From a virus, in the IMG/VR virus record IMGVR_UViG_3300003324_000211, positions 13,057-46,026 of that record: a stretch of 32,970 nucleotides of DNA; one strand, written 5' to 3'. This document shows positions 325 to 32,970 of the stretch, in pieces. A model generated the notes under the pieces. The model was not told the DNA's origin. It was given only the letters and a program-made list of their open reading frames with translations, and did no database searches. The translations under genes and the position numbers were made by a program. Within the stretch, counting starts at the first letter, position 1, and every line of letters begins with the position of its first letter.

Positions 325-330
325 TCAGAA
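315..330. repeat. Small inverted repeat spanning the terL stop codon
   Basis: The arms ttctga (315-320) and tcagaa (325-330) surround a 4-base loop ctga. The TerL stop codon (325-327, minus strand) lies inside the right arm. The repeat sits directly beside the larger inverted repeat at 280-313. The role is unknown. Confidence 0.35.
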
Positions 331-3180: not shown

Positions 3181-3585
3181 ATGGCTGGTAAGCTCAAAAA
3201 GAAAAGCCTTCCCTTCCAGACGGGTGTGGTGGGGGATGTGAGTTTCACCGTTGGCGCTGAGGCGACGAACGTTGTGAACGTCGCCGGACAGGTCAAGGAT
3301 GAAAACGGCAAGGCCATCACGCAGCGGGTCATGCTACACGTGTGGCTGTCTGACGTTGCTACGGGTCTGGGTCTTTGCGCCGTTGCCCCGTCCGGCACTG
3401 TCGTCATCGGCACCAACGGCACCATTCTGGCGTCGATCGTAGCGAAAACCTGCCTTCTCATTCAGACCGACGCAAGCGGGCGCTTCGATCTGAACATCAC
3501 GGAGGCTGGGGCGAAGACGCTTTACGTGGGGGCACGTCTTCCTGACGGCACGTTCAAGGTGTCCAGCGTCGCTACCTGGACGTGA
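3181..3585 (+). CDS. Small virion-like protein upstream of portal
   Basis: A 134-residue protein rich in beta-strand-forming residues, with phrases (FTVGAEATNVVNVAGQVKD, LNITEAGAKTLYVGARLPDG) that I have seen in small structural proteins of several tailed phages. It has a basic N-terminus (KLKKK) and no signal peptide. The ATG at 3181 is chosen over one at 3163 because GGAGG at 3168-3172 is 8 bases before it. It is the first gene of the rightward block, directly before the portal. A head-decoration or capsid-associated role is plausible but not shown. Confidence 0.7.
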   Translation: MAGKLKKKSLPFQTGVVGDVSFTVGAEATNVVNVAGQVKDENGKAITQRVMLHVWLSDVATGLGLCAVAPSGTVVIGTNGTILASIVAKTCLLIQTDASGRFDLNITEAGAKTLYVGARLPDGTFKVSSVATWT

Positions 3586-3666
3586 CCTGCAAGCGGAGGT
3601 CGGGAGGAAGCTGACGGGAGAGGGGTGTAAACCGACTCCGTTGCTTTGCTAATCCTGCGTGCGTTG

Positions 3667-7356: not shown

Positions 7357-9357
7357 ATGAGGGCCTTGGTCCTGACGCTTACAGCGGTAACCGCTGTAAC
7401 ACCAACACAACAACCGGAACAAAAGACACCTAACCCTCAGGAGAATACACTCAAGCTCAGGGGATGTACGATCAAGATGACGCCATCCCCGGCAGACGCG
7501 GTCGCACTTGCGGATGCTGATTCGCAGAGTCTGGGAACAGATGCTCCGTTCTTTCGGTACATCTGGATAGAAGACTCTGACATCGAAACCCTCAAGGCGA
7601 TGTCACTGGCGATAAACTACACCAGTCAGGCGTCTGTGATCGTAAGGCCGACACCTGTAATCGTCGGTGAAACGATGCTTCTGAGGGTGGACCTCAGAAA
7701 TTACGCTCCGAAGCCGGAACAACTGGAGCAATTTCTGAAGTTCTGGGAGGATTACCAAAATGATCCAAAGTTCTCCATCCTGATAACGAAGGCGATCCTC
7801 GCCAACCTCAAATTCCCTGATGACAAAGTTCCTGTCGTCAAGGTGAAGAAGAAGGTTGAGAAAAAGGTCCTCAAGTCCAAGGGTGAGGACAAGGTCGAGT
7901 GGCGTACTGAGCTGCGGGAGAACGTATACCACCCAGGAGGTGATTACACTTACCCAGACGACACCGGGCGGGTATCCAAAAATGTACCTGCTGGCACGTA
8001 CAAGGTTGAGCTGAAGTTCAAGAAGGTTACTCCAGGAGAACCAGTGTATGAGGTGATTGTTGTTGAGGAGTTCGTTGAGGTGAAGATTACTGACATCAAA
8101 GATGTCAACCTCATTCGGATTCCTGGACAGCATATCGATCTCACACGATATGACACTCTTGTGGGACGCCTGCGGACAGCAGCCCCGGTCGTAAGCCACA
8201 GCTACTGGATGTGCCGACACCTGGCGACGTTCAAGGGTAAGGGGGTGTTTGCGGAGCTGTACGGCGGACGCTATTACGAGTTCATGCTCTACCGTCGTGA
8301 TGGCAAAGGCACTGACGAAGATCGGATTCTTGAGGACTTCGGTATCGGCAATATCGAAGCAGGGGTCACGGCGGAAAAGCTCTTTGATAAACTGCGGTCT
8401 GACCAGCGCTTCGCGATCTTCAAATCGAAGGTCACAAGCAAGCCCAGGCGCGGGGACTTCTTCCGGAGTCCGTCTGGTCGTGAGGGTACGGGTCTGATCT
8501 CAATCACGCATGATCTGGTTGACGAAGATGTGGACATCGACGTTCACCCGATCATGAATCTACTCAAGTTCCAGGACGCCGGACGGGAGGGCATTGGGGA
8601 AGCAGCGAACGGTCTCCACAAGTTCTGGATCACGAACGGACAGGGCGTGCTACAGGACGCTGCACCACAGAACCTTGTGGAAGACTCTGAGATCCCAGCA
8701 CCGTACACCCGACGGCTCCAATGCGCGATCAGTTGCATTAGGTGTCACGGAATCGGTCGTGCCGACGGATGGAAGGTAGCCGAGAATGACGTGAAGAAGC
8801 TCTTGAAAATCAACCCGATGAAACTCGGAGTTGATGTGTTCGGCGACACGACGAACAAAGGAGTGACCACTACAGACACAAACGACCGAATCGCTGGTCT
8901 GTACGCTGGTGATCCTGAGAACCGTGTGTTTCCTCGTGGTCGTGATGACTACGCAGCGGCGGTACTCAAAGCCACTGGACCGTGGAAGGGTAGTAAGGAC
9001 CAAGTGGATGTGGTTACCCTGGCTTCGGCTCGGCTGTCGAAAGTGTGGGCGGACCGCAATTACCAGATGGTCACCCCACAGACCGCACTCAAGGAGCTTG
9101 GTATATCCCCACGTTCGCCGAAGATCTTAGGCGCATGGATGGGTACAGAAGAGGACACAGACTCTCAAAAGGTCCTGGAGGCGTTACTACCTCCAGTCGT
9201 TGAGGAAGGGATCTACGGGATCGTACCAGAGGACCCGCGAGTTGCCGCACTCAGGCAAGGGATTCCAATCAATCGCGCGGATTGGGACCTAATCTACGGG
9301 TTTGTGGCTGCCCGGGTTCAGAAGTCACTGGTTGCTCTCAGCAAGGAGAAAAAGTGA
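7357..9357 (+). CDS. Large secreted-type protein with a CxxCH haem motif
   Basis: A 666-residue protein of no named family known to me. A short hydrophobic N-terminus (MRALVLTLTAVTAVTP) could be a signal peptide. Residues 150-180 are a Lys-rich stretch (VKVKKKVEKKVLKSK). The only CxxCH is C460-I-R-C463-H464, preceded by C456, in the setting CAISCIRCHG. This is the covalent haem c attachment pattern. The C-terminal 200 residues are mixed helix. The style recalls planctomycete multidomain proteins with embedded cytochrome c motifs. ATG 7357 has GGAG about 7 bases upstream. The stop overlaps the next gene, which has a second CxxCH, as GTGA. Haem attachment is predicted, not shown; a zinc or disulfide role for the Cys residues is possible. 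Confidence 0.7.
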   Translation: MRALVLTLTAVTAVTPTQQPEQKTPNPQENTLKLRGCTIKMTPSPADAVALADADSQSLGTDAPFFRYIWIEDSDIETLKAMSLAINYTSQASVIVRPTPVIVGETMLLRVDLRNYAPKPEQLEQFLKFWEDYQNDPKFSILITKAILANLKFPDDKVPVVKVKKKVEKKVLKSKGEDKVEWRTELRENVYHPGGDYTYPDDTGRVSKNVPAGTYKVELKFKKVTPGEPVYEVIVVEEFVEVKITDIKDVNLIRIPGQHIDLTRYDTLVGRLRTAAPVVSHSYWMCRHLATFKGKGVFAELYGGRYYEFMLYRRDGKGTDEDRILEDFGIGNIEAGVTAEKLFDKLRSDQRFAIFKSKVTSKPRRGDFFRSPSGREGTGLISITHDLVDEDVDIDVHPIMNLLKFQDAGREGIGEAANGLHKFWITNGQGVLQDAAPQNLVEDSEIPAPYTRRLQCAISCIRCHGIGRADGWKVAENDVKKLLKINPMKLGVDVFGDTTNKGVTTTDTNDRIAGLYAGDPENRVFPRGRDDYAAAVLKATGPWKGSKDQVDVVTLASARLSKVWADRNYQMVTPQTALKELGISPRSPKILGAWMGTEEDTDSQKVLEALLPPVVEEGIYGIVPEDPRVAALRQGIPINRADWDLIYGFVAARVQKSLVALSKEKK

Positions 9358-10526
9358 AGACGCTGAAGTTCGTGATCATGATCCTGTTGGTTCTGATCGT
9401 CTTCGCTGTCCCGGCGTACGCGGACACTTACCCGAACGGATACATCAACAACGACGGTTACACCTGGCGGGACGGGTATTGGTGGAAGGGAGGCAAAGCG
9501 TACAAGTACGAGCAATACTACGTGGCAGGTTACTCGTACTGGTCGTGCGGATACTACTACAGCAAACCGGGCTACTACGATTACAAGTATGTGGAGTACC
9601 CGGTCGCCTACCAGTATTCACCGCCTCCTGTCTACACCCCGCCGGCGCCCGCCCAGGTCACCCCCAATGACCCGGGCTGGCGATCGAAACTCCTGGACAT
9701 TGCCGCAGCCCGGGACAAGGCGGAGTCGGAATGGCGGAAAGGTGCGTACGAGCAGAAGTATTTTCTCGACGCTGTCCAGGCACTCGGACTGCAGGGGAAC
9801 TTTCGGTGGGAAGGATACGGGGCTGCACCCCCATACCCGGCGGTGGCCCCAGGGTACAGCAGTACCTATTATGGAGGGTATGTCCCTCTGAACGGGATCT
9901 TTACCCACCAGTTTCAGCTCGGGTCATATGGAGCCAACGGATCAACGATCTATGGCTCGAGCTACAAGCAGCTTGCTGATTACTACGGGGATGCAAGCAT
10001 TCCTCAGTTGTACCAGCAGGCGAACCGACTCGCCGAAAACGCTCAGAAGCTGGGCGGACAGGCTACCACAGACTTCTCAGCGTTGGTGCAAACGGAGGGG
10101 GCTAACCGCGCGCGTGTTGCTGAGATCCTGGCTCGCGGGCAAGCAGTCCAGCAGTTCATGCAATCGCTGGACGGCCCGCCGCGGACGGAAACTCAGAAGC
10201 TCGAAGTGGGGCCAGGGAGTGCGAACCCGCAGCCTCCTCCGATCCCACAGGCGCAACCGAACCCACAACAGTCCGTGAACCCAGGCGCCAGGAAGGCGCA
10301 GTTTGAGGCCAACTTCAAGACGGATTGTGCGTCGTGTCACAGTGGCGCGAAGGCCAAGGGAGGCTTTACCCTCCAAGCGTACTACGGCATGACCCCTGCA
10401 CAGAAGCAGGAGGTGTGGAAGTTGCTTTTAACGGATGACAAGGCCAAGATGATGCCCCGGAAGCCCGATGGGAGTGCAGGTGCCTACCTGCCGCTTGACC
10501 GGGTCAAACTGTGGACGGAAAACTGA
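9354..10526 (+). CDS. Exported c-type cytochrome-like protein with Tyr-rich N-terminal region
   Basis: A 390-residue protein. The GTG at 9354 is chosen over an upstream TTG at 9282 because it gives a clean signal peptide (MKTLKFVIMILLVLIVFAVP, cleavage after AYA at 21-23) and the GTGA overlap seen elsewhere in this operon; GGAG is 8 bases upstream. Residues 24-95 are Tyr/Gly/Trp-rich, then a helical middle (110-270), a Pro/Gln linker (285-312) and a C-terminal mono-haem cytochrome c-like domain: C325-A-S-C328-H329, with M366 or M367 (KMMPRK) as the probable sixth ligand. It would act outside the cytoplasmic membrane and rely on host cytochrome maturation. A phage-encoded cytochrome c is unusual. 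The haem domain looks intact. Confidence 0.8.
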   Translation: MKTLKFVIMILLVLIVFAVPAYADTYPNGYINNDGYTWRDGYWWKGGKAYKYEQYYVAGYSYWSCGYYYSKPGYYDYKYVEYPVAYQYSPPPVYTPPAPAQVTPNDPGWRSKLLDIAAARDKAESEWRKGAYEQKYFLDAVQALGLQGNFRWEGYGAAPPYPAVAPGYSSTYYGGYVPLNGIFTHQFQLGSYGANGSTIYGSSYKQLADYYGDASIPQLYQQANRLAENAQKLGGQATTDFSALVQTEGANRARVAEILARGQAVQQFMQSLDGPPRTETQKLEVGPGSANPQPPPIPQAQPNPQQSVNPGARKAQFEANFKTDCASCHSGAKAKGGFTLQAYYGMTPAQKQEVWKLLLTDDKAKMMPRKPDGSAGAYLPLDRVKLWTEN

Positions 10527-13529: not shown

Positions 13530-14606
13530 ATGGAATTCATCATGAACAATCAGGCGTTTGGCGGAACTGTCGCCAACCGCTTGCTGATGACCAACATGGA
13601 TCCCGGGGTGCTGCGCCCCTGGGTTGGCGCGGACGGACGGTCGTACATCGCCCTCAACATGGGCGTTGACCAGCAGACCGGCAAGCCGAAGCGCCAGGTC
13701 TACACGACCAACGCTGCTGCGACGCTTCGCAAGGACGAATGGATTCGTCTGGATGAGACGGTACTCCGGGTCGCGCGTCCGCAGCTCCGCGTGTGGGGGG
13801 ATCTAGTTCAGGCTGGTCTCACGTACAACGTGCCAAACGGCATGGGTACGACGGTCCTCCAACACCAGACGATGACCGACGCCGGCGAAGCGACGATGAG
13901 CATGGACGGGCTGCGTCGCAGCAACCGGGACCGTCCGCACTTCGACCTGGCGGGCCTGCCGCTACCCATCGTGCATTCGGACTTCAATTTCTCGCTTCGC
14001 GAGATCATGGTGAGTCGGAACACGGGTACTCCGCTCGACATGACGATGGCGGAGCAGGCAAGCCGGAAGGTCACAGAAACGATCGAGAAGCTGACTCTCG
14101 GTACGCTGTCCTCGTACAGCTACGGGGGTTACACGATTTACGGCCTGACCAACCACCCGAACCGGATCACCAAGAGTCTGACCCTGCCAACGGATGTGAG
14201 CTGGACGCCACAGACGCTGGTCGGTGAGATTCTGGACATGATCCAGTCTTCTCAAGATATCTACTTCAACGGCCCGTGGGGTCTGTACTTCAGCCCGGCG
14301 TGGTCGAAGTACCTGGACAACGATTACTCGCAGACGTACGCGGGCAACAGTCTCCGGACCCGTCTCGCCCAGACGGACGGACTGTCGTGGATCCGCAAGA
14401 CTGATTACCTGACCGGGTATCAGGTACTGCTGGTCAGCCTGCGTTCCGACGTCGTTCGAGCGGTAACCGGCATGGGTCTCACCACCCTCCAGTGGGAGGA
14501 AGAGGGCGGGTTGGAGATTCACTTCAAGGTGATGGCGATCATGGTGCCTCAGATTCGTGCGAACAGCGACGGTGTCACGGGTCTGGTGCACGGCGTCGCG
14601 GCATAA
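13530..14606 (+). CDS. Major capsid protein (HK97-fold, encapsulin-related type)
   Basis: A 358-residue protein forming the icosahedral shell. The pattern of an N-terminal arm, a VPNGMGTTVLQHQTMTDAGE segment at about residues 101-120, RPHFDLAGLPLPIVHSDF at 134-151 and YGGYTIYGLTNHPNR at 202-216 resembles HK97-fold capsid proteins related to encapsulins. ATG 13530 has a strong Shine-Dalgarno 6 bases upstream and sits after the shared leader repeat. Gene order (protease/scaffold, DUF2190-like, capsid, connectors) supports the assignment. No delta domain is separate from the protein; the scaffold appears to be encoded in the protease gene. Confidence 0.9.
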   Translation: MEFIMNNQAFGGTVANRLLMTNMDPGVLRPWVGADGRSYIALNMGVDQQTGKPKRQVYTTNAAATLRKDEWIRLDETVLRVARPQLRVWGDLVQAGLTYNVPNGMGTTVLQHQTMTDAGEATMSMDGLRRSNRDRPHFDLAGLPLPIVHSDFNFSLREIMVSRNTGTPLDMTMAEQASRKVTETIEKLTLGTLSSYSYGGYTIYGLTNHPNRITKSLTLPTDVSWTPQTLVGEILDMIQSSQDIYFNGPWGLYFSPAWSKYLDNDYSQTYAGNSLRTRLAQTDGLSWIRKTDYLTGYQVLLVSLRSDVVRAVTGMGLTTLQWEEEGGLEIHFKVMAIMVPQIRANSDGVTGLVHGVAA

Positions 14607-18317: not shown

Positions 18318-18808
18318 AGGAGGGTGACGAGTACGCCTGGCACGCAATAGCTGACAGACTCAAGATGAGTGTCAGCGAAGCTAAAGAAAGCGTGCCTGTA
18401 ACCGAAGCCCTCCGATGGTCTGAGTACATTTGGGAGAGGGAGTGGGGCAGTCCGAGTAAGACGGATCTCTATCTTGCTCGGATATGCTATCAACTATACC
18501 TCCTTTTCTTCCTGCTGGGCGGCAAGCCTGACAAGACAATCAAGGACTTCATATACGAGTTCCCGCGTCCTGATAAGAAGGACGAGCAGGCTACACCGGA
18601 ACTCACGTATGAGGAAGAGGTCGCACAGGCTGAAAAGCTCTCAGCAGAATCCAGGGCTGCCTGGATGGCGGCTGCTGGCGTGATGGGTAAGAAGATCGCA
18701 AAGGAGATCAAGAAAACAGACACCAAACCCAAGCAGCCGAAGGTGACTCCGGTAGTTAAACTCCCTGACACACCGAAACGCAAGCACAAGCCCAGGGGTG
18801 GGCGGTAA
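18311..18808 (+). CDS. Tail assembly chaperone, frameshift extension (gpT-like)
   Basis: The -1 frame after the slippery site gives 165 more residues, making a fusion of about 296 residues with the upstream frame. The joined sequence begins RLKEGDEYAWHAIADRLKMS, matching the GT-type pattern of a Trp-containing helix followed by a short-motif helix, and then continues with WSEYIWEREWG. An ATG at 18365 lies inside it but lacks a good Shine-Dalgarno site, so independent translation is less likely than frameshifting. The C-terminus is Lys/Pro-rich. The stop overlaps the tape measure start (TAATG). Confidence 0.8.
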   Translation, partial: RLKEGDEYAWHAIADRLKMSVSEAKESVPVTEALRWSEYIWEREWGSPSKTDLYLARICYQLYLLFFLLGGKPDKTIKDFIYEFPRPDKKDEQATPELTYEEEVAQAEKLSAESRAAWMAAAGVMGKKIAKEIKKTDTKPKQPKVTPVVKLPDTPKRKHKPRGGR

Positions 18809-21063
18809 TGGACGTCGAACGTGTGATCGTAAAGATGATGGCGGACTCTACGCAGTACACCCGTACTATGGATGGTACGGTGGTGACTGCGCAGCGTACC
18901 GCCGCAAACATTACGATGGCGTTTCGTGGCATGAGCAGTAGCGGGGCGTCCTCCCTGGGTATGCTAGGGCAAGCTGCAAGCTCTGTTGGGAGCGTGTTTT
19001 CGAGTATCCTTGGCAAAGCCATCGATTTCGCCAAGTACGGCCTAATCGGTCTGATCGGTGTCGCAGCGGTTGCTGGCTACCACGCGATCCAGTTGGCAGC
19101 TGATTACGAGCAAGCCTCAATCGCATTTGAGGTGATGACAGGAAGTGCCGAAAAAGGCAAGAAGGTACTCGATGACATCACACAAATGGCGGTCACAACG
19201 CCATTTACATCCGGTCAGTTGATCGAGACAGCCCAGCAACTCAAATCGTTCGGTATTCAGACGGACCAACTCATACCAACGATGCGAGCCCTGGGCGACG
19301 TCGCCGCTGGTGGCTCCGGTGGGAGTCTGGACGTTCGGATGCAGCGTCTCAGCCTCGCCTTCGGGCAGGTGATGACTGCCGGCCGTCTAATGGGCACGGA
19401 GCTACGCCAGTTCAACGAAGCCGGCGTGCCTTTGATCCATTACCTGTCCGAGGAGCTGGGTGTCCCCGAACAGAGAGTCAAAGGGCTGGTTGAAGCTGGT
19501 CGTGTCAGCTCAAACGCTGTCATCGGTGCGTTTAACCGCATGACTAGCGCTGGCGGGTTGTTCGCGGGCATGATGGACCGCCAGTCTGAGACTGTGGCAG
19601 GTAAGTGGTCTACTCTCAAGGACAACATCCAGATCCTACTCCGGAACGTTGGCCTAGCAATGGTCAGCGGGTTTGGGATCAAGGGTCTGCTTGATGATTT
19701 CGCCAACGCGGTCCAGGACGCTTCCGGCGGTGTTGGTAAACTTGAGGGCATTTTCGGGAATCTTCGCAAGGTTTTCGATGCGTTCCGCGCTGCTGTGATG
19801 GGTGTCGGCAAAGTCCTGTTCAAGCAGTTCACAAGCGAGGGCGGTCTTGATTGGGACCGGATCGAACAGATTGCAACCGACGTCCTGAAGGGTATCATCT
19901 CATGGGTTGGTAAACTCATTGATGCTCTTGCCAAAGCCGGGGTGTTCATCTCTGAGAACATCTTGATGCCCATCATAAAGACGATGGAGCAGATTGGGGT
20001 GTTTGAGAACCGGAACGCGCAAGGCGAAGCTACAACGATCTATCAAGCACTCCGGGACAGGGGCGAAAACAGGTTCGTGTCAGGTGTCGCCGGTTTTGGT
20101 CTCGGAATTTATGACGAGGCTGCTGGTGGTAAATACACCGAGGGACTTCGCCAGCGGGGGGTGTTGGGACAGGGCGAAAGTGCGGCGGTTACTCAATTCA
20201 AGGAGATGGCCGAACGACTCAAGAAGGTAGATGCTGCTGGCACGGCTGAGCAGATGATCAAAGAAATGGAGGCCTATCAGGAGCAACTTCGTAAGGCTCG
20301 TGAGGCCACTGCTCCAATTGTTCCACTTGCCAAAGAGGAACAGGAACGCATTCGCAAGGAGCAGATGGCATGGGCGAAAGCCTACGCCTACCAGGAGCAG
20401 AAGTTCGGACAGATGAAGGCTGATGCTGGTGGTGCAGCGCTGGGCGGTCTGGGAATGGCCGGTGGTGGACAGGGCGCGCTATACGCAGAGCGGTACTATC
20501 GTGAGTCCCTTGAGAAGATGAAAGGGATGGACGAGTATTTCGCAGCCCAAAAGCGTGCCAAAGAAGGCGCTGAGAAGATGGCGAAGAAGTGGGAAATCAG
20601 CGCTGATGCGATGGACTTTGCGAACAAACTCCAGAAGGAGATGGTTGATGGAACTTCCGCCCTTGAGAAGTTCAATTACACAACCAAGCTCCTGAACGAA
20701 GCCAGGGATAAGAGTCTGGGTTTCGGTGCGCTGGGCGGTGGCTGGTCGCCTGGACATGGCGGAATCCTCAGCGAACAAGAGTTTCAGTATGGGCAGTACA
20801 AGTCTTTCATGGAGTTGCGTCGGTCCCTTGGTGATCGGATGGAGGTCAAACTCCCACCAGCAGCCCTGCGCGGGTCCACCGAAGCGCAGGAAATCATCAA
20901 CCGAACCTCCATGCAAACTGGCAACTGGCAGGATGAGGTTCTGCGGGTGATGACAGCGGCCAAGGACGCGCAGCTCGAAGAACGCCAGACCATGAAAGAG
21001 GTTCTGGAACAGCTCAAGAAGCTGAACGAGGATGATTCGTTTGAACTCGGTGATATCGAATAA
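18808..21063 (+). CDS. Tail tape measure protein
   Basis: A 751-residue protein that sets tail length and is ejected during infection. It has an N-terminal helical region, a hydrophobic Gly/Ala stretch (FAKYGLIGLIGVAAVAGYHA) at about 72-91 and the tape-measure core pattern MTGSAEKGKKVLDDI and LIPTMRALGDVAAGG between about 109 and 170. The later part is long helices rich in Lys, Glu, Gln and Ala. At about 1.5 angstrom per residue it implies a tail near 110 nm, fitting a siphovirus. The ATG overlaps the chaperone stop as TAATG. No tail sheath gene is present. Confidence 0.93.
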   Translation: MDVERVIVKMMADSTQYTRTMDGTVVTAQRTAANITMAFRGMSSSGASSLGMLGQAASSVGSVFSSILGKAIDFAKYGLIGLIGVAAVAGYHAIQLAADYEQASIAFEVMTGSAEKGKKVLDDITQMAVTTPFTSGQLIETAQQLKSFGIQTDQLIPTMRALGDVAAGGSGGSLDVRMQRLSLAFGQVMTAGRLMGTELRQFNEAGVPLIHYLSEELGVPEQRVKGLVEAGRVSSNAVIGAFNRMTSAGGLFAGMMDRQSETVAGKWSTLKDNIQILLRNVGLAMVSGFGIKGLLDDFANAVQDASGGVGKLEGIFGNLRKVFDAFRAAVMGVGKVLFKQFTSEGGLDWDRIEQIATDVLKGIISWVGKLIDALAKAGVFISENILMPIIKTMEQIGVFENRNAQGEATTIYQALRDRGENRFVSGVAGFGLGIYDEAAGGKYTEGLRQRGVLGQGESAAVTQFKEMAERLKKVDAAGTAEQMIKEMEAYQEQLRKAREATAPIVPLAKEEQERIRKEQMAWAKAYAYQEQKFGQMKADAGGAALGGLGMAGGGQGALYAERYYRESLEKMKGMDEYFAAQKRAKEGAEKMAKKWEISADAMDFANKLQKEMVDGTSALEKFNYTTKLLNEARDKSLGFGALGGGWSPGHGGILSEQEFQYGQYKSFMELRRSLGDRMEVKLPPAALRGSTEAQEIINRTSMQTGNWQDEVLRVMTAAKDAQLEERQTMKEVLEQLKKLNEDDSFELGDIE

Positions 21064-21072
21064 GGCTTGCTC

Positions 21073-22092
21073 ATGGCATCGTTGAACGACTATTACGGGC
21101 TAGTAGACGAACTGCCAGAAGGGCGGGCGGGTACTCCGTTCAACCACGGAGGAGCCAGAGAGTACACTCGTAAGTTCCTCGTACACATCAAGAATAAGGA
21201 GATGGGTCCGGTCGCAGTCTGCTGGCACCCAGGTCTGCCCAAACGGTATGATTTCTACAAGAGCAAGAGTGGAGTCGAGTATGACTTGACCTCACTCTGT
21301 ATCAAGAAATCAGCCGTACCGAAGAACACCCAACAGGGAGATGATTGGGTCCAGTGGATTGTTACTTGCGAGTACAGCTCTGAGCTTGGCAAGATGGCAG
21401 CCCCGGACGATCCCGGTGACCCGGGTGACCCTGGCAAGCCGGAGTCTGGGGACTCCCCGAAGTCTGCCGGGGCTTCGACCAACCCGGAGCTAGAGCCTCC
21501 CGAACTTGAGTGGGATTGGGAGATCAAGAATGAGGCTATTCCTGTTGACCTGGACGGACAGCCGTTCATCAACAGTGCAAACCAGCCTCTGAGTCCTCCC
21601 CCGACAGTCGAGGTTGCGTTTCCCGTGTTAGTCGTAACACGGAACGAACTCCAATACGACGTTGATGTAGCAGCGGAGTATGCATACGCTGTTAATCAGG
21701 ATGTTTTCATGGGCCGGGATGCCGGCACGGTCCAGTGCATGCCCGCCAGGGCAAAGGCGGTATATCGGGGCTTCCTCCAGTATTACCGCGTAACGTACAG
21801 ATTGAGAATTCGGACGGACGGCAAAACGTGGCAGCCGGAGTACCTGGACGCCGGGACCTGTCGTCTTCAGAATACCCCGGGAGCCCCCAACCAAGGTCAG
21901 CCTGTCCCAATCATTAGGTTCGGCGCCCCCATTACCCAACCCGTCCTGCTAAAGCAAGGCCAGCCCCAAACTCCCCCTTTCAAGCCTTATTACATCCGTC
22001 GGCGGGTCTACGAGTCCAAGCCGTTCAAACGGGTGTTCACTGAAGGCAAGGGGATGACAAAGCCTCCAACCCCACCCAAGAAGGGCAGGTAA
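21073..22092 (+). CDS. Tail-tip protein after the tape measure
   Basis: A 339-residue protein in the distal-tail/baseplate position. ATG 21073 is chosen over a TTG at 21067; AAGG is 7 bases upstream. A folded N-terminal part (1-110) is followed by an acidic Pro/Gly/Asp linker with GDPGDPGKP (about 115-145), then a beta-rich domain to about 320 and a basic Pro-rich end. I recognise no family. It may be a tail hub or adaptor connecting the tube to the fibres. Confidence 0.65.
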   Translation: MASLNDYYGLVDELPEGRAGTPFNHGGAREYTRKFLVHIKNKEMGPVAVCWHPGLPKRYDFYKSKSGVEYDLTSLCIKKSAVPKNTQQGDDWVQWIVTCEYSSELGKMAAPDDPGDPGDPGKPESGDSPKSAGASTNPELEPPELEWDWEIKNEAIPVDLDGQPFINSANQPLSPPPTVEVAFPVLVVTRNELQYDVDVAAEYAYAVNQDVFMGRDAGTVQCMPARAKAVYRGFLQYYRVTYRLRIRTDGKTWQPEYLDAGTCRLQNTPGAPNQGQPVPIIRFGAPITQPVLLKQGQPQTPPFKPYYIRRRVYESKPFKRVFTEGKGMTKPPTPPKKGR

Positions 22093-22096
22093 AACC

Positions 22097-22585
22097 ATGC
22101 GTGTTGACAAAGATCTAACCGTCCCTGGCACACTTACTGTGGGTAACATCACCTTACCTGCAAACGTTGTAGGTGATACTGAGTTCAATGGTTCTGATCC
22201 TCTTAGCTGCGCCAAGCAGAGTCACCAGTTCCTCAAGGACTATAAGCAGAACAAGACAACGACCGTCGCAGCCGATCGTCAGTTCCTCCACATGGCTTTC
22301 GGCGACGGCGACATGGTTGGATTTCGTGCGTGTTTGATCGACACGGTGAACCTGTCTGGTGCTACGATCACCGTCAAGATCTACAAGAATGGTGTTGACA
22401 TCACCGGCACTGCGTCGATTATCACTGACGCACACGCACTTTATGAGGTGGTGGAAGGTACTCTGTCGAGTCTTCCATATTCAGCAGATGACGTGTTTGA
22501 GGTTGTTGTCACTGTCGCCGCTGGGGGCGGGACGCTGGGCAAGGGCCTGTGCGTAACAGCCATCTTCCGTGAGGATGCCGAGTAA
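22097..22585 (+). CDS. Tail fibre-associated protein
   Basis: A 162-residue beta-rich protein. The start MRVDKDLTVPGTLTVGNITL is a common fibre or appendage opening. Its beta-sandwich pattern (FRACLIDTVNLSGATITVKI) may bind a receptor or carbohydrate. It is followed directly by the main fibre gene, whose ATG overlaps its stop (TAATG). Function rests on position and style. Confidence 0.65.
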   Translation: MRVDKDLTVPGTLTVGNITLPANVVGDTEFNGSDPLSCAKQSHQFLKDYKQNKTTTVAADRQFLHMAFGDGDMVGFRACLIDTVNLSGATITVKIYKNGVDITGTASIITDAHALYEVVEGTLSSLPYSADDVFEVVVTVAAGGGTLGKGLCVTAIFREDAE

Positions 22586-24021
22586 TGGCGCGACGGGGAG
22601 TAGCTTTCACAAACCGAGATGAGTTTGACCGCATGTCTGCTGCTGTCCGACGGACAGAGCAGATGTGGCGGTCAGATGAGTTTTCACCTGCTCCTGACGG
22701 CCAGTACGGCGCCGTTCCTGTCGATGTCCAGATCACTTCCGCGACCGCGACCGCGGGTCTGTACCCTGGCAAGTTCGTCGCGTACAACCAAGACACCGGT
22801 TCATGGTACGATCTTGATGACGGAACGTGTCGTGTGAAGGACGTTGGTGGGGGAGCCCTGATCAACGGAGCCAGGTACAAAGGCACGATCACCGGTGTCA
22901 CAAACGAAGGGTCGGAGACCAGCGGAACAAACAACGGCTATCCGATCGTGACGGTTGTACTTCCAGGGGGCCGCTCACCATCGTATTTCGTTGATTATTC
23001 TGGTGATACAACTGTCCCACTTACAGGCAACGTCTATGCCTTAAACGGCTCATTCGTATGGACGATTGGGACACTAATCACCGATCTCGTATATCCGATT
23101 CAGGTACGAGACTACCAGATAGCATTTAGTAATCTGGTAGACTTTCCTGTTTTCCCCGGGGCGACTGGTCTGATCTATCCAGACAGTGGTCAGCCTACCA
23201 AATACGCCTTGCTGCCATTCCAGTACGCTGATTACTACGTCCCGAACTCAACGTACTACGGAGGCATGCTAAAACCCACAGGTGCTCAGCGAGTCGGAGC
23301 TTCTGTCACATGGGATGGAGCAGCCTACTTCAACAGTGACGCCACAGTCAACGGCACTTTCTACTGCAATGGGAAAGCGCTGTTTGCGGGCGGTGCCGAC
23401 GCGGTAAAAACCAACGGCGGAGCGAGTATTAGTGGGGGGCCGTTTCCTTCAGACCTGGACGTCAACGCCAAGGGACCTGCAGTCTTTGGTGATTCTCTTT
23501 CCATTATCCTCGGGGGTGAATATGGCACAGTTGGACATTTCGACTATGTAATGATCTCTTGGGTAGACATGACTGCTTATGGGTTCGGCTCATCTTGTCC
23601 CCAGCTCACCATGAATGCTGTCGGGTTTGGTGGCGGGATTACAGCCGTTCCAGGAGGGTTCCTTGGAGGCGGGGCGACGTTTGGCGAATTCATCTCGGCA
23701 TACTGCTTGCATGTATGGGATGCAGGTACTGTATATGACGGGGTGAGTTACAACGTGACTGGTTCACTGACGGGTCAGCCGTCTTTCAAAGGCGGTATTC
23801 TCATCAATGCCGGCTCTGGGTTCGGAGGAACAGTTACTAGTGTTGATGTATCGGGTGGTACGACCGGCCTAACTTTCTCTGGTGGTCCTGTATCCACATC
23901 TGGTACTTTGACGATGTCCGGCACACTTGGTCAAAGTAACGGCGGGACCGGGCAGACGTCATTCCTTGCAGCACTAGGCGCAGCCGGCGGCAGTGCTACC
24001 TCTGGTAGTCTGACTCCCTAA
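22585..24021 (+). CDS. Tail fibre protein
   Basis: A 478-residue protein of the left phage. The N-terminus (1-60) is helical and probably attaches to the tail tip. The middle is Gly/Tyr/Thr-rich beta structure. The end contains the widespread fibre phrase [18 protein letters not shown] followed by [20 protein letters not shown], seen in many phage fibres. It is followed by a second fibre gene after 23 bases. Confidence 0.8.
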
Positions 24022-24044: not shown

Positions 24045-25550
24045 ATGGCCGCACGGAAGTTCCTCAATTCGCTCAGTTGGGCTGCTGGTGGTCTGGTGAT
24101 TTCAGCAGCCAATGATTACATTCTTGCGACAGACCTCCCAGATCTGTCGGGAACGTATCAGCCGTTAGATGATGATCTGACCTCCCTTGCGGCAGCGTCG
24201 TCAACCGGTGCGATCTACTATCGGTCTGCTGCCTCTACCTGGAGTCCGGTCACCATCGGCTCTGGTCTAACGTTCACAAGTGGTACACTTTCGGCATCCG
24301 GATCTTCGTACACAGACGAAATGGCGCAGGACGCTGTTGGTGGGATTTTCGCAAGCACTACTACCATCACAGCAACTTACGACGATGTCGGCAACTCAAT
24401 GTATTGGGCTGTGGTTACCCAGATGTCCATCACTTCTGATGGTTCTGGCCTCAAACTGTCTGGTGATAGTGCCTCACCTGGCAACTCAAAATACTACGGT
24501 ACTGATAGTGGTGGCACGAAAGGGTGGTTCTCACTTCCCACAGTGCCACCAGCTTACACAGACGAGATGGCACAAGATGCTGTTGGAGCAATGATTGATA
24601 CTACTTTAGTTTATGTAGATGGTACACCTTTATTGACTCGTGCTGAATTGACTGGTGATGTAAGTTGTCCACAAGGTAGTAATGTTACTACAATTGCACC
24701 AGGATTAGATGCAGCTAAAATAGGAACAGGAACTGTAAGTAATACAGAATTTGGTTACTTAGATGGTGTTACATCAGCAATTCAAACTCAGTTTACTGGT
24801 AAGCAAGATACTTTAGTATCGGGATCTAATATCAAAACTGTTAATAGCAATTCTCTAGTTGGAAGTGGTAATATAGCTGTAGGAGATGCGTTGGTAGCTA
24901 ATCCTTTATCTCAATTTGCTGCTACAACATCTGCACAATTAGCAGGTATTATAACTAATGAAACAGGAACTGGAAGTTTAGTATTTGCAACAAGTCCCAC
25001 ATTAGTAACTCCTGCATTAGGAACTCCTACTTCAGGAATATTAACTAATTGTACAGGATTACCTTTAACTACTGGAATAACTGGAAACTTACCCGTTACT
25101 AATCTTAACTCAGGTACAAGTGCAGCTATCTCTACATTTTGGAGAGGAGATGGTACTTGGGCTACTCCTACTGGAGTTACATCAACTGTAATTTCTTCAC
25201 AAACTCCTACTACTGTATCGGGAGGTACTTTCACACTAATTAATAGTATGACTGTTACTCCTGGAGCTGGAACTTATCTAGTATTCTTTAATGCTGATAT
25301 GGAACATGCTACAGCTAATGCTAACTTTAGTTATGCAATATATGCAAATGGTGTTCAAGTAGTTGATAGTGTTAGATCTTGTGAGCAGCCTATAGCGACT
25401 ACACTAGGCGCGGCTGCAATTCAAAATTATGCTACTCATACTGTAGTAACTATTTCTGGAGGACAAGCTATTGAAGTTAGAGGTAGTGAAACTGGTACAG
25501 GTACTCTTGGTGTTAATAATAGAACTTTGACCATTTTAAAAATAGCCTAA
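24045..25550 (+). CDS. Tail fibre protein spanning the GC-rich/AT-rich junction
   Basis: A 501-residue fibre in one open frame. Codons up to about 175 are GC-rich like the left phage; from about codon 185 they are AT-rich like the right phage. A repeat [11 protein letters not shown] occurs at about residues 89-99 and 171-181. After the second copy comes the widespread module [20 protein letters not shown], then the [11 protein letters not shown] motif (about 365-375). The C-terminal 120 residues look like a C1q/TNF-like beta-sandwich for receptor binding. The gene may be a true hybrid or an assembly join; the frame is intact either way. Confidence 0.75.
24309..24340 (+). repeat. Fibre repeat unit, copy 1
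   Basis: A 32-base unit encoding [11 protein letters not shown]. It matches copy 2 (24555-24586) at 28 of 32 bases by hand count. The differences are at synonymous-type positions and copy 2 has more A/T. Confidence 0.8.
24555..24586 (+). repeat. Fibre repeat unit, copy 2, at the composition break
   Basis: The second copy of the [11 protein letters not shown]-coding unit. AT-rich sequence begins within or just after it. Its four differences from copy 1 shift codons towards A/T, so it may already belong partly to the right-hand sequence. Confidence 0.8.
24570..24600. other. Sharp composition break (chimera or recombination junction)
   Basis: Hand-counted 60-base samples give GC of 65% (13561-13620), 48% (24481-24540), 38% (24601-24660) and 30% (29461-29520). 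Third codon positions switch from mixed/GC to A/T within about 30 bases. Shine-Dalgarno sites occur on the left and not on the right. Confidence 0.85.
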
Positions 25551-25600: not shown

Positions 25601-25933
25601 ATGGAAACTACTGTAAGTGTAGCTTTAGTTATTGCTTTAATAGGTTCATTAATTGGTATAATTAATTGGATTCGTCAAGGTAAGATTGACGCTACAGGAT
25701 TAGAACGAAGATTAAGTTCTTCTGAAATTAAAATTGATACTCTACAGACTATAATAAACAATTATAATCTTGCAAATGTAATTAAGATGGAACAACAGTT
25801 AGATAACTTAAAAACTAGAGTTGAGAAGCTTGATACAGATGTAGAGAAAAAGATTGACCAGTTAACAGATAAGATTGATAGCTTAATGATTAAGATTAAC
25901 GACTTATCTATACAGATAGCTAATAAAAAATAA
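25601..25933 (+). CDS. Membrane-anchored coiled-coil protein (AT-rich part)
   Basis: A 110-residue protein with one N-terminal membrane span (about residues 5-23, SVALVIALIGSLIGIINW) and a long coiled coil (about 35-105, with LDNLKTRVEKLDTDVEKKID). The topology is similar to that of the left phage's protein at 5392-5895, but the sequence differs. No Shine-Dalgarno site is present; the start is preceded by AT-rich sequence. Lysis, membrane or virion roles are possible. A strong terminator follows it. Confidence 0.65.
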   Translation: METTVSVALVIALIGSLIGIINWIRQGKIDATGLERRLSSSEIKIDTLQTIINNYNLANVIKMEQQLDNLKTRVEKLDTDVEKKIDQLTDKIDSLMIKINDLSIQIANKK

Positions 25934-26031: not shown

Positions 26032-26721
26032 ATGAGTAAATACGATTTAGTTAGAAGTCATATAGATTTTGTTCGTCAAAGTATGAAGGAAATTAGTGAT
26101 GATTCAGAGTTTACAGATGAACAAATCTACATGGCATTGCTTGAAGCTAGAGGATTAATTCTTGAGAGAAGACTTGAGAAGCACAAAGAGCTTCCTGAAG
26201 ATTTGTATCAGACTATTTGTATGCCGCTTTGTTTAGATGATTATAATGATTGTCCTGAATGTATGGATATTCCTGAAGACTGTAAAGTTCTTAAAACTGA
26301 AGATGAAGTCCCAGCAGGATTGTTTGATGGTAATATGGAGATTGTAAGAGTAGCAACATTGAATGGTAGAGAAATAGCTCCATCAAATGAAGCTCTTCAT
26401 AGAAATAGAATCTATAGAAAAACAGGTCATAATAATTATTATTATCTTAGGATGAGTAATCGCTTAACTATCTTTAATGTTCCTGGAAATAGGCTTCGTA
26501 TGATTCGTTTAAAAGGTGTATTCTTAGACCCAGTTGAAGCACAACTATTAAATAGATGTACAGAGTCTTGTACGGATTTATTGGAAGCTAAATTTGGAAC
26601 AAGAGTAGCTGATAGAATAGCTATTCGTGAAGAGGCTTTAAAAGCCCTTTTAAGAACGAAACAGATGCCAGATGATAGAAGCAATAACGCAGACTCAATC
26701 ATTCCAAATACAGCCCTTTAA
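26032..26721 (+). CDS. crAss-like tail ring/adaptor protein (P22 gp4-like)
   Basis: A 229-residue protein. The helical N-terminus (DLVRSHIDFVRQSMKEISDD) and a Cys-containing segment (CLDDYNDCPECMDIPEDC, about residues 66-83) precede a beta region and a C-terminal helix (IREEALKALLRTKQMPDD). In crAss-like phages a gp4-like adaptor heads the tail block and connects the portal to the tail. Position at the head of a block with an IHF-like gene and a muzzle gene supports this. No Shine-Dalgarno site is present; the start follows tatatATG. Exact ring identity is not certain. Confidence 0.65.
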   Translation: MSKYDLVRSHIDFVRQSMKEISDDSEFTDEQIYMALLEARGLILERRLEKHKELPEDLYQTICMPLCLDDYNDCPECMDIPEDCKVLKTEDEVPAGLFDGNMEIVRVATLNGREIAPSNEALHRNRIYRKTGHNNYYYLRMSNRLTIFNVPGNRLRMIRLKGVFLDPVEAQLLNRCTESCTDLLEAKFGTRVADRIAIREEALKALLRTKQMPDDRSNNADSIIPNTAL

Positions 26722-26764: not shown

Positions 26765-27232
26765 ATGGAAGCAAGAAGAATTAGCATAGTTGAAACTTAT
26801 AAAACTTATATAAAAAAGTATCCGAAAGGTACAGTTCATTATCTTACTAAGGGAGAATATATTAAAGTAATGAAAGCTATTGGAGAAGAATTAGCTTATT
26901 TCTTAATAACTACAGGTAAGAGAGTTAATATGCCACATAAACTAGGATGGTTTCAAGCTGTAAAGTATTATAAGAGAGAAGTAGACTTTCCTGGAAAATG
27001 GGAGAAGAAACATAAGTTTAATCGAAGACGTGTAGTAACTCAAGGATTTAGAACAACTATTCATTGGAGTATTTATCATAATCTTCTGTTTAAGAATAAA
27101 TCTAGATATGTCTTTAATGTGTCTAGACCTAATCTTAGAGTTACCAAGAATAATAAAACAAAGCCAAGAGTCTGTTTATATCAATTCTTTAGGGAAATGG
27201 GCTATAGACTTTATGAGATTAAAAGATTTTAA
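26765..27232 (+). CDS. crAss-like IHF/HU-fold virion protein
   Basis: A 155-residue basic protein. Residues 30-65 (LTKGEYIKVMKAIGEELAYF, then GKRVNMPHKLGWFQAVKY) resemble the IHF/HU DNA-binding fold, which crAss-like phages carry in their tail gene block as a structural or completion protein. The C-terminal half is Lys/Arg-rich. There is no Shine-Dalgarno site. It is placed between the adaptor-like and ring-like genes, as in crAss-like genomes. Confidence 0.6.
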   Translation: MEARRISIVETYKTYIKKYPKGTVHYLTKGEYIKVMKAIGEELAYFLITTGKRVNMPHKLGWFQAVKYYKREVDFPGKWEKKHKFNRRRVVTQGFRTTIHWSIYHNLLFKNKSRYVFNVSRPNLRVTKNNKTKPRVCLYQFFREMGYRLYEIKRF

Positions 27233-27251: not shown

Positions 27252-28268
27252 ATGAGTAATTATTTAAAGAATATCAGAACAGCTCCATTAAAAGCTGTAG
27301 CTGCCAGAGTTCTAGAATTCTTACCAAAGGATTCTATTAGTGTAGATAAACTAGAAGAATGGGCTTATCAATCATATGAGTCAATTGCTCCTAGAGAAAG
27401 CTATGAAGTTAGATTTAAGTATATTCCTATAACTAATCATCAAGGAGGATTACCACCTGATATGTTTGTATTAGAGATGGTTCTGTTTAGAAACTTTACA
27501 ATGCTGCATGAAGCTAGAACAGCTCCATATAGCAATCAGAAGACAGAGTTTTCTACAACTACAGATGTTTATACTGGAACTACTGAAGATAAAACTACAA
27601 AGGCAACTGTCACAACAGATATTGCTAGACGAAATGTTCATCTTAACACAGGAATGGATATTGAAGTATTTAAGCAAGATGCTGATGGACATCTTACTAA
27701 AGAGCAACTATATTATTATCAACGAGGAGGGCATTCTGGATGGAAACCTTTAAGATTAGCTACTAATGTATTTCATGCTAGTGTTATTATGGGGACTCCT
27801 CACGATGTGTATGCTAATTGTGAAGAAGCATTTAGTGTACAACATGGATGCATAATTACTACATTCTCTGAAGGAGAAGTAATGATAGCTTATACAGGTT
27901 TACCTACGAATGAGGAAGGAGAGTTTGTGTACTCCGATTATGAATATGTAAGTGCTGCAATTGAAGCAGCTTTATTGAAGAACTATTGGAAATGGAAATT
28001 AAATACTGGTAATGAAGCAGGTGCATTACAAAAATATCAAATGTTTGCACAAGAGTATGAATTCTTATCAGCTAAAGCAACTGCTAGTTTAATGATGCCA
28101 AGTTTAATCCAATATCAAAATATAAGAAATATGAATAAGTTTGTTAAAGAAGATTCTCCATTTGCAACTGTAATGGGAGCATTAAATAATAGAGAGAAAA
28201 TAAACTTTAACAATATGCATGGAATGAGAAATCCCTTATTCTATGGACTTTCAGTTAATAATCATTAA
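27252..28268 (+). CDS. crAss-like tail hub/ring structural protein
   Basis: A 338-residue protein. Helical N-terminus (SISVDKLEEWAYQSYESIAP), then a beta-rich part (RFKYIPITNHQGGLPPDMFV), and a helical C-terminal half with AAIEAALLKNYWKWKLNTGN. I recognise the style as a conserved crAss-like tail-block protein upstream of the muzzle, but I cannot say which ring it is. It begins without a Shine-Dalgarno site, 19 bases after the IHF-like gene. Confidence 0.6.
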   Translation: MSNYLKNIRTAPLKAVAARVLEFLPKDSISVDKLEEWAYQSYESIAPRESYEVRFKYIPITNHQGGLPPDMFVLEMVLFRNFTMLHEARTAPYSNQKTEFSTTTDVYTGTTEDKTTKATVTTDIARRNVHLNTGMDIEVFKQDADGHLTKEQLYYYQRGGHSGWKPLRLATNVFHASVIMGTPHDVYANCEEAFSVQHGCIITTFSEGEVMIAYTGLPTNEEGEFVYSDYEYVSAAIEAALLKNYWKWKLNTGNEAGALQKYQMFAQEYEFLSAKATASLMMPSLIQYQNIRNMNKFVKEDSPFATVMGALNNREKINFNNMHGMRNPLFYGLSVNNH

Positions 28269-28279
28269 AACTAAATAAA

Positions 28280-31200
28280 ATGCAAAAAGATACTGTACAA
28301 TTATTAAAAGGAATGTACAAGCAAGCAAGTGCTAAACAACAACCTGAAGGTACTTGGGCATTTGCATTGAATGCTTTATTTGGTTCTTGGTTAGGAGATT
28401 CTTCATCTATAACTAATGAAATAGGTAACCAAACTTGTGTAATTATAGAAGATGATGAAGCGTTTCGTTATACACTAATTGGTGCAAGCTTATTACCTGA
28501 TAATAAATTTGTCTTATTCTTTACTACAGATACTGTTCATGTAATAGGAATACATAATCCAATGGATTGTAGTTTCGAGATATTAATCAAAACTGATTGT
28601 CCAGAGCTAGGATTTAAAAGGCACAGACAGCTTACGACTCGTAATAGAATTATTGCAGGTTGTAAAAGAGTAGTATATTTCTCAGATAAGATTACTAAAT
28701 ATAAATCTATCTACATAGATGATTTAGAGCAATATCTTAATATTAATCCTGATGGTACACCTATATTCCCATTAAGTACAGCGAATGATACTTTGAATTA
28801 TCCTACAGCATGGAATTGTGTTAAACTAAATCATTTTACATCGTTTGTTCCAGGGTTAATATCACTAGATTCTATTGTAAATGGTGGAGGCGAAATCAAA
28901 GCAGGTGCGCATGAGTTTACAATGAGGTATCTTGATGGTAGTTTAAATCCTACTAATTGGTCACCTTTAACTCAACCCATATTTATTTATTCTGAGCATG
29001 TTATATTAAACATAGCAGATGGTGAAGCTGCTGGTACAGTTACAGATAAAAGTATAAAATTTATCTTAAGTAATCTAGATCCTTCTTTTAACTTTGTTCA
29101 ATTAGCAGTAGCTTCTTCTGTATTAGGTACAGGAAATGTAGATGAAGTATTTATCTTAGATAAGATTCCAATTCAAGTATCAGGTGGAGTAGGTTCTGCA
29201 ACTTATACTTACAGCGGATTTAATTCTTCTACGCATACAATATCTTCATTGGAAGAAATTACGACTCCAACTATTCCTTTTTCTGGAGTAGTCGCACATG
29301 AGATCATTGATAATAGATTATTGTTAGCAAATGTATCTAATCTCAATGAGGATTGGGCAAGTTTACAACGAGCTACATTATTAGCTAAAACTAAATGGAG
29401 AATGTATCATGATTATGTTACAGACCCTGTAGGATTAGAATCAGATGGAGATGTACAAGCAGCTACTAATGCAGAAATTATCTTTGAAGGAAAAACTTTA
29501 CTTCGAGATGAAATATATGCATTAGGAGTTATCTTCTTATTAGATGACGGCTCTGAATCTCCTGTCTTTCATATTCCTGGAAGAGAAAAAGATATAGATT
29601 ATGCAGGCAATGATTTAGTAACTGTTGCAGCAAGTATGCCTAATCAAAATTCTCATAATACTAGAGGGAACAATACAATAGCAAATTGGGATTCTACTAA
29701 TTTAGAGATTGTATTCGATGCTGTTATGCAAGCAGGAGATGAAGATGACAAAGTAGCTTATAGTAATATAGTACATATGCTAGACTCATTGACTAATTGC
29801 AGTACTACTCCTGTCATTGCAGATAAGTTAAACACAGCTACTTTTAGTATTCATTTAGTAGGTCCTCCAGCAGTATTTACTTTAAATTTTGCAGATCCTT
29901 TAGATAGAGCATTAGTCAGAATTAGTGTTCAAGGAATTAGAAATGATTATACAACTGAAAGTGTATTTAGACATCTTGACAATCTAAACAATACTTTATC
30001 TGTTCCATATAATGACCCAGTTAGAGAGATAATAACAATAGAAATATTTTATTGGGATGGAGTTAACCAAGTAGCTTATCATGAAATTACAGGAGGAGAT
30101 AAGTTAGGCTTCATAGGATTTCCATTAGTTGCAAATAGAACACTTTACTTAAATAAATGTGTATATAAAAAACATTCTTGCGATGATATAGAAAGATGGC
30201 AAGTACATAATACATTTGTTGTAGAAAGTGATGCAGGAACTGGGGAGTATGAAGGTTATATGGGCTATCATGAAAACTCTAATTGTTTGTATCCAAGAGT
30301 TGAGGATTGTTCAGGTACATCTATATTCGATGCAAGTTCACTACAAAGAGCAGATTTAACATTTGGACCAAACCTAGTAGGCTCTAATATTAGACACCAT
30401 AGAATGCCTGATTGTGGAGGGCATTCTACAGAATTTGGATATTATGGAAATGAGATGGGATTAACTCAGCGAGTTTGGGTAGATGAAGATGACATTATCG
30501 ATGGTCCTACTGGAGATTTACAGTTAAAAACTAAACTTAATAAGCTTGGTTTAATTGTAGATTTATCTGATGTTTATCTTAATATACCTACTGCACTTAA
30601 AGATAGAATTGTTGGACATTATATAGCTTATGGTAAACGTAATACGATAGATAAAACAGTCATAGATAAAGGATATATGTGGAGGAATCATAACTATGCT
30701 AATTATTGGTATGATACTTTGCAAAATGAATGGCATTACGATATGTGGACTTTTAATAAACCTACTGGTTTATCATATGATGATTGTTCTTTTCCATTTC
30801 CACTTACTGATATAGGTAGAGTATTACCTACTAATTATTCTATAGCACAAGGAATTAGAGCTGACTTTTGTTTCACTTCATCTATCCCTGCATACTTAGG
30901 ATATGGTTATGGAGTACCAATAACAAATACACCTCCCTCGGTTGGGCATCCTGGAAATCTAGGTTCACATGGTTCTCCTTTGAATGTTACAGAATATATT
31001 TCTCCTAGTACTATATTTGATCAAAAAGTATTAACTGGAGATTATGTTAAAATAGAATGTCCTATTGTAAGTTATTTCCCTGATTTAATTAATATAGGAG
31101 ATGCAAGTGAATTAGAAATTACTCAAGTAGAATCTTTAGACTTAGGAGGATGTCCTTTTCCAGGCGTTGTTAGGCAAAATTGGTTTGAGACATTAACTCA

Positions 31201-32970
31201 TGCTGGATTTAATAATATTTCAACTCATGTAGTACAACCCACGGATTCTCAGGCTACAGGCTATGCAATAGACCCTACTGATTTAGCTTACTTAGGTTTT
31301 CACCGTAAGATGTTAGGAGCAGCTATTATTCCTAATCACTCTACTGGTAATCCTGGAAACTTCACAGTATCTGTCACACTTAACACTGATTCATTTGGAC
31401 AAGTTAGTTCATTCTATCAATTAGAGCAACCTTTTCCATTACCATTAAGTGTAGGCATGACTCAATGGGGAGATATTATGGCTGGTTGGGCAGATCCTTT
31501 AAATGTAGCAAACACATTCTGGAATGTAGCAGATGTTATAAGTGAAATTAAAGGAAGAGGCATGTCTAATTTTTATGTAGCTATTAAGAATTATAAAAAT
31601 GTTTTCTGTTCTCTTGAAGATATTACTTATATTAGAATGAATACTTATTATATAGATAAGGATTTAGATTCGAGCTTAGAAGTTATTAAAGGCGGAGATA
31701 CATTCATTACAAAGATGCGAGCTGTTAAAACTTGGTCAAAGAAATCAGGTGATGGAGATAAGTTTACTAATATAAAGAATGTAGCTTGTTCTATGGAAGG
31801 ATTTGTAGAATCTGATAAGGTTAATAGTGCATTAGCACATTCTAGTGTAGATGAATCTAACTATGCTTTAAAATATTTTAGTAGATTTTATTATTTATCT
31901 ATTGGTAGAAATGCTGATTCTTTTAATAAAAATACCTTATGGGCAGATGGCTCTGTAGATTTTTCTGATAATTCATCTATGGCTGTGTATGGCTACAGAG
32001 AATTTAAGTTTCAAATGAATCCTGACTTCAGTAAATCCCTTAATGAAAATCCTGGATTTCCTTTAAGTGACTCTTATGATTATTGTGATAACTGCGATGG
32101 TAGAGAACCTAATAGTATTTATTATTCAGAGAAAGGCTATGCTGAGAATATAGCAGATAACTTTAAGTTAATAACAGCTAATAATAAATTTACAATTCCT
32201 AGTGAATCAGGACCTATTACTAACTTGTTTCTTGAAAATGACCAGCTCTATGCTCATACTAATAAAGCTTTATTTGCCGTCCAAACTAGACCACAACAGC
32301 TTAATAGCGATTCAGCTACTATCTTTGTAGGAACAGGAGAAATTGGTTCTATTCCTCCACAAAGATTAGTTTCTGTACAATACGGATATGGTGGTTCTAT
32401 TGATTCATTTGCTACTGTCGGTACTCAATATGGAACCTTTTATATTGATTCAGATAGTGCAAGAATCTTCATATTTGGTAAAGGTTTAAATGAAATATCT
32501 CGTGTAGGTATGGAACAATGGTTTCATTATTACCTACCTTTAGAATTGAAGAAACAATTCTTTAGTATTACTGGTGTAGAGTATCCTGTTAAAGATACTT
32601 CAAGTGATAATAGTATTGGCTATCAAGCTACATATGATACTAGAATGAATAGAATCATTCTACATAAGAAGGATTACTATATAAGACAAACTGATGATAA
32701 TGGAGATCCATTAACTGTGGATGCTATAATTTATGCAAGTATATTAGATATAACTCCTCCTGCGCCTATACCTAATAATATTCTATATATTGTTCGAGAC
32801 GAGTTTGATTATATAAGATTTTATATTTGGGATGGATTAGACTTTATAGAAATAACTCTGAATAATAAGGATAGATTTGAGAATAGTAGCTTTACTATTA
32901 GTTACTCATTAGATGGGAACTTTTGGGTTAGCTTTCATAGCTATCAGCCTAACTTCATGTATAATGATAA
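28280..32970 (+). CDS. crAss-like muzzle / P22 gp10-like tail protein (partial, no stop in window)
   Basis: An open frame of at least 1,563 codons that runs off the window. The N-terminus (MQKDTVQLLKGMYKQASAKQ, then EGTWAFALNALFGSWLGDSS) matches the start of crAss-like muzzle proteins related to P22 gp10 DNA-stabilisation proteins. Conserved late features are IPPQRLVSVQYGYGG at about residue 1357, GLNEISRVGMEQWFHYYLP at about 1402, and SFHSYQPNF near the window end. A Cys pair motif YCDNCDG occurs at about 1268. It forms the tail tip that closes the channel. All codons are AT-rich and no in-frame stop of any kind is seen. There is no Shine-Dalgarno site. Confidence 0.78.
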   Translation, partial: MQKDTVQLLKGMYKQASAKQQPEGTWAFALNALFGSWLGDSSSITNEIGNQTCVIIEDDEAFRYTLIGASLLPDNKFVLFFTTDTVHVIGIHNPMDCSFEILIKTDCPELGFKRHRQLTTRNRIIAGCKRVVYFSDKITKYKSIYIDDLEQYLNINPDGTPIFPLSTANDTLNYPTAWNCVKLNHFTSFVPGLISLDSIVNGGGEIKAGAHEFTMRYLDGSLNPTNWSPLTQPIFIYSEHVILNIADGEAAGTVTDKSIKFILSNLDPSFNFVQLAVASSVLGTGNVDEVFILDKIPIQVSGGVGSATYTYSGFNSSTHTISSLEEITTPTIPFSGVVAHEIIDNRLLLANVSNLNEDWASLQRATLLAKTKWRMYHDYVTDPVGLESDGDVQAATNAEIIFEGKTLLRDEIYALGVIFLLDDGSESPVFHIPGREKDIDYAGNDLVTVAASMPNQNSHNTRGNNTIANWDSTNLEIVFDAVMQAGDEDDKVAYSNIVHMLDSLTNCSTTPVIADKLNTATFSIHLVGPPAVFTLNFADPLDRALVRISVQGIRNDYTTESVFRHLDNLNNTLSVPYNDPVREIITIEIFYWDGVNQVAYHEITGGDKLGFIGFPLVANRTLYLNKCVYKKHSCDDIERWQVHNTFVVESDAGTGEYEGYMGYHENSNCLYPRVEDCSGTSIFDASSLQRADLTFGPNLVGSNIRHHRMPDCGGHSTEFGYYGNEMGLTQRVWVDEDDIIDGPTGDLQLKTKLNKLGLIVDLSDVYLNIPTALKDRIVGHYIAYGKRNTIDKTVIDKGYMWRNHNYANYWYDTLQNEWHYDMWTFNKPTGLSYDDCSFPFPLTDIGRVLPTNYSIAQGIRADFCFTSSIPAYLGYGYGVPITNTPPSVGHPGNLGSHGSPLNVTEYISPSTIFDQKVLTGDYVKIECPIVSYFPDLINIGDASELEITQVESLDLGGCPFPGVVRQNWFETLTHAGFNNISTHVVQPTDSQATGYAIDPTDLAYLGFHRKMLGAAIIPNHSTGNPGNFTVSVTLNTDSFGQVSSFYQLEQPFPLPLSVGMTQWGDIMAGWADPLNVANTFWNVADVISEIKGRGMSNFYVAIKNYKNVFCSLEDITYIRMNTYYIDKDLDSSLEVIKGGDTFITKMRAVKTWSKKSGDGDKFTNIKNVACSMEGFVESDKVNSALAHSSVDESNYALKYFSRFYYLSIGRNADSFNKNTLWADGSVDFSDNSSMAVYGYREFKFQMNPDFSKSLNENPGFPLSDSYDYCDNCDGREPNSIYYSEKGYAENIADNFKLITANNKFTIPSESGPITNLFLENDQLYAHTNKALFAVQTRPQQLNSDSATIFVGTGEIGSIPPQRLVSVQYGYGGSIDSFATVGTQYGTFYIDSDSARIFIFGKGLNEISRVGMEQWFHYYLPLELKKQFFSITGVEYPVKDTSSDNSIGYQATYDTRMNRIILHKKDYYIRQTDDNGDPLTVDAIIYASILDITPPAPIPNNILYIVRDEFDYIRFYIWDGLDFIEITLNNKDRFENSSFTISYSLDGNFWVSFHSYQPNFMYND

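Follow-up and report, generated by a model that had tools for sequence, protein, structure and literature searches.

A siphovirus and a crAss-like phage meet inside one tail-fibre frame of an IMG/VR virus record, probably through misassembly

In phiCrAss001, the ring proteins and the muzzle form a long podovirus-like tail barrel (PMC10172136). The hosts of the Crassvirales are Bacteroidetes (PMC10136315). A second kind of phage that bears on the present locus is an uncultivated siphovirus group (L143, L170) that includes an 80-kb IMG/VR record (G005) and has homologues of the terminase, portal, neck, tail and tape measure genes of the left part described below. In simulated viromes, misassembled scaffolds made up about 1-3% overall and 15-21% at lengths of at least 50 kb with two assemblers (PMC5253355). 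The contig studied here is like such chimeric scaffolds in that two genomes lie in one scaffold.

The window is the whole stretch of 32,970 nucleotides that was analysed, positions 13,057-46,026 of the 46,026-base record IMGVR_UViG_3300003324_000211, which is a fragment; coordinates below are those of the window. GC content is 53-56% before 24.5 kb versus 29-34% past 25.5 kb, and neighbouring 4-kb windows differ most at 24,600, where the jump reaches 22 points. This is about twice the largest step among 138 control phage loci, in which adjacent 4-kb windows differed by a median of 3.7 and at most 11.3 points. Trained on both sides, a second-order Markov model has its change point at 24,564 (24,547-24,601 within 3 lnL). 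Within the fibre frame, a change point based on synonymous codons falls at 24,566 (support, 24,537-24,578), with a gain in lnL of 274 over an all-left model and 87 over an all-right model. The union of both supports, 24,537-24,601, defines the join interval, to which no strand is assigned. GC3 is 66% in the left genes, 17% in the right genes, 49% in the left-derived portion of the fused fibre frame (24,045-24,566, plus strand) and 11% in its right-derived portion (24,567-25,550, plus strand). The frame itself, 24,045-25,550, stays open through the change point. Both change points and the shift in GC3 fall within this open fibre frame, and therefore the step is sharp, real and within a single gene. 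The original prediction had placed a sharp GC drop, a change in codon use and an in-frame join inside a tail-fibre frame between 24,500 and 24,660, and all of these are borne out by the measurements.

To the left of the join, the gene content points to a tailed siphovirus, as had been predicted, with a tape measure gene accompanied by portal, capsid and terminase genes. The terminase large subunit (325-1746, minus strand; PHROG 38, 6.5e-77) has 32 IMG/VR relatives, the best at about 59% identity, and a second gene (2122-2928, minus strand; PHROG 309, 8.4e-16) is like the terminase small subunit. The portal (3646-5157, plus strand) matches Phage_portal_3 (PF06381, 4.6e-29) and PHROG 146. The probable major head protein (13,530-14,606, plus strand) matches PHROG 771 and 264, DUF6260 and Linocin_M18; it has homologues in two Zixiibacteriota MAGs, at loci (L174, L175) that are probably proviruses. 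The tape measure protein (18,808-21,063, plus strand) matches PHROG 9959 (3.6e-53) and TMP_3 (PF20155, 3.7e-30), and as a query against IMG/VR it found one distant locus only. The gene directly 3' of it (21,067-22,092, plus strand) matches, at 41%, a G005 gene in the same position, and the tail protein before the fibre (22,585-24,021, plus strand) is similar over its N-terminal 133 amino acids to the G005 protein in the same position. The head-to-tail order of G005 is kept through the gene after the tape measure. Past the tape measure region, G005 has tail genes of its own, which lead on to other genes, unlike the present contig.

Several other features of the left phage were seen. The terminase cassette (325-3461) lies on the minus strand and the portal (from 3646) on the plus strand. 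Because terminase and portal share one orientation in relatives (L145, L155 and L143 are examples), the cassette is inverted in the window. Between portal and capsid, an ORF at 9282-10,526 has a signal-peptide-like start and, near its C-terminus, a CASCH haem-binding motif; its match to Planctomycete cytochrome C (PF07635, 8.9e-5) is barely above the cut-off, and it had no match among phage records. A search of the left relatives for the cytochrome-C family was negative, as was the control for that search. Outside the window, on its left, a MoxR-type ATPase gene adjoins one for a von Willebrand factor A protein (L132, 4429-7445).

To the right of the join, the first gene after the fibre encodes a small membrane and coiled-coil protein that may be spanin-like or holin-like (25,601-25,933, plus strand; PHROG 214, Rz-like, a weak match at 2e-4). 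It is followed on the plus strand by crassvirus tail ring protein 2 (26,032-26,721; CrAss_Ring_2, PF25702, 1e-25), a small gene (26,765-27,232), tail ring protein 1 (27,252-28,268; CrAss_Ring_1, PF24228, 7e-23) and a muzzle protein (28,280-32,968; crAss_MUZ, PF25731, 1e-28) whose frame is truncated by the right contig end. These four genes are collinear with those of an 87-kb crAss-like contig (G011), which they match at 63%, 42% (in the same position), 63% and 52% (over 1,563 amino acids) identity, respectively. The same ring 2, ring 1 and muzzle families occur in the same order in phiCrAss001 (gp40, gp43, gp44; PMC10172136). Matches of all three above the Pfam cut-offs argue that this part derives from the Crassvirales, in line with the predicted crAss-like podovirus tail block. 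It differs from the usual Crassvirales block in that only 8.4 kb are present, the muzzle is cut and the preceding genes come from another virus. In G011, ring 2 is preceded by a crassvirus capsid gene (PF23898) and several other structural genes; its match to ring 3/4 is weak and slightly below the Pfam cut-off. No crassvirus major capsid gene lies on the 8.4-kb fragment, a stretch too small to reach one, although G011 has it. Other marks of the group, a genome near 100 kb and genes for a large RNA polymerase and a DNA primase, would lie beyond this fragment, which stops within the muzzle gene. A muzzle query against IMG/VR gave no relatives by that route, but a ring 1 query does find G011. 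A Cpn60 chaperonin gene adjoins the capsid genes of G011 (L172, 14,526-16,184).

If only the fibre part had been exchanged, as in the ordinary acquisition of a fibre module, the contig would represent one working phage. The right fibre portion does resemble modules in over 590 IMG/VR contigs, in which its middle segment recurs, and it is therefore not diagnostic of crAss phages when taken alone. Codon use is what assigns this portion to the right phage. After a simple swap, however, the genome would be expected to return to the left type, and it does not: GC remains at 29-34% to the contig end, and the ring and muzzle proteins follow in crassvirus order. Since the join is followed by 8.4 kb of the crAss type and the left type does not come back, we rejected a module swap within one phage, which we regard as extremely improbable.

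Comparison with relatives separates the two parts of the contig completely. Among 47 proteins of G005, 13 had matches in the left part and 0 in the right, and 11 of 48 proteins from the Zixiibacteriota MAG loci likewise matched only the left. By contrast, 4/26 proteins of G011 matched the right part and 0/26 the left. In ten records of left relatives, G005 among them, neither the ring 1 nor the muzzle family was detected, although some of these records are fragments, so that absence is not proof for each record. The tape measure family was not found in the crAss-like record G011. Thus, when each half is searched against virus genomes, as the original prediction had proposed, the relatives match one half only, and two genomes with mutually exclusive relatives meet at a single point.

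The translation signals of the two parts differ as well. Of 18 left genes, 9 have a Shine-Dalgarno site, versus 2.5 expected (P = 0.001), as do none of the five right genes; on five genes alone the contrast is not significant (Fisher P = 0.12). In relatives, these sites were found for 24/45 left-type ORFs versus 0/24 crAss-type ORFs of G011. The loss of Shine-Dalgarno sites that had been noted at the join is therefore also seen between the relatives of each part. This contrast suggests that the hosts of the two phages probably belong to different phyla, which would make co-infection of one cell unlikely.

The left-type capsid genes in two bacterial MAGs raise another way to obtain such a contig, namely a bacterial chromosome with two proviruses, side by side or one inside the other, that a deletion running from one fibre gene to the other brought together. 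The translation signals indicate two host types. Furthermore, the crAss-type ORFs are intact, no tRNA was found and no host genes were recognised among the families searched. On the last ground adjacent proviruses were rejected, and we consider this origin to have hardly any chance of being correct.

The change point lies inside a short motif of the fibre protein ([11 protein letters not shown]; 24,555-24,587, plus strand). The left phage has its own copy of this motif 246 bases upstream of the copy at the join (24,309-24,341, plus strand), and the two copies show four synonymous base differences over 32. Twenty-two other contigs among those fetched, with local GC from 33 to 68%, carry this motif or one close to it. 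It opens modules of the left kind ('...[16 protein letters not shown]') in L002 and L003, with which the left-derived fibre portion has its module in common, and also opens modules of the right kind ('AMIDxxLxYVDxTPLLxRxxLTGDV') in L039 and L049. A 47-residue query of the motif and the sequence downstream of it had no match among phages. Within the motif, exact identity between contigs of unrelated phages extends over at most 26 bases, and exact sharing for the present join is 20 bases. The claim that the break falls in a common fibre module is thus upheld, with the change point inside a motif that recurs.

A natural crossover at such a site has to be considered. Fibre modules are known to transfer among phages, and the join is in frame, in register and within a motif that recurs across phages whose GC differs widely. 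Short homology at the shared motif could have let a siphovirus recombine with a crAss-like phage in one cell, the hybrid then being sequenced. Several points weigh against this. A siphovirus head and tape measure are not expected to form one virion with a podovirus-like crassvirus tail, in accord with the earlier statement that the two tail types cannot serve one virion. The hosts are probably of different phyla, and such a dead end would probably not reach the abundance that assembly requires. Exact patterns of 82 and 32 bases spanning the join found no second copy in IMG/VR, a search that near-identical records may escape, and so the same join was not seen in independent contigs. A near nucleotide search of each half against phage records gave no matches, and no near-identical contig of either parent came to light, again with the proviso that near-identical records may fall outside the search. 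We consider a crossover of this kind unlikely, and it is just as doubtful that a real siphovirus/crAss-like recombinant molecule existed in sufficient abundance to assemble.

The incompatible virion plans and the probable difference in host phyla make an assembly chimera of two phages the best explanation, and we hold it to be very probably correct. The earlier analysis had left misassembly and true recombination side by side; the evidence now favours assembly as the maker of the join, with recombination kept as a minor alternative. Contig bases 1 to about 37,620 (the window to about 24,564) derive from a siphovirus whose GC is about 55%, and the final 8.4 kb from a crAss-like phage that has about 31% GC and would have been present in the same sample. 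Each of them would have carried the mosaic fibre motif, and the assembler may have crossed between the genomes through a short, nearly identical stretch of it. Since the motif is coding and the crossing kept its register, the frame would have stayed open. We infer that both actual parents carried the motif and shared exact bases at the join. Since 20-26 exact bases are short for an assembler's final k-mer, the parents would need longer sharing or thin coverage.

These results indicate that the record is best regarded as an artefact and should be divided into its two parts. Left unsplit, it would imply a virus with virion genes of both siphovirus and crassvirus origin, mislead taxonomy and host calls and bring a fused fibre protein into databases. 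The results also suggest that the widespread motif is a spot where contigs of unrelated phages can join in frame.
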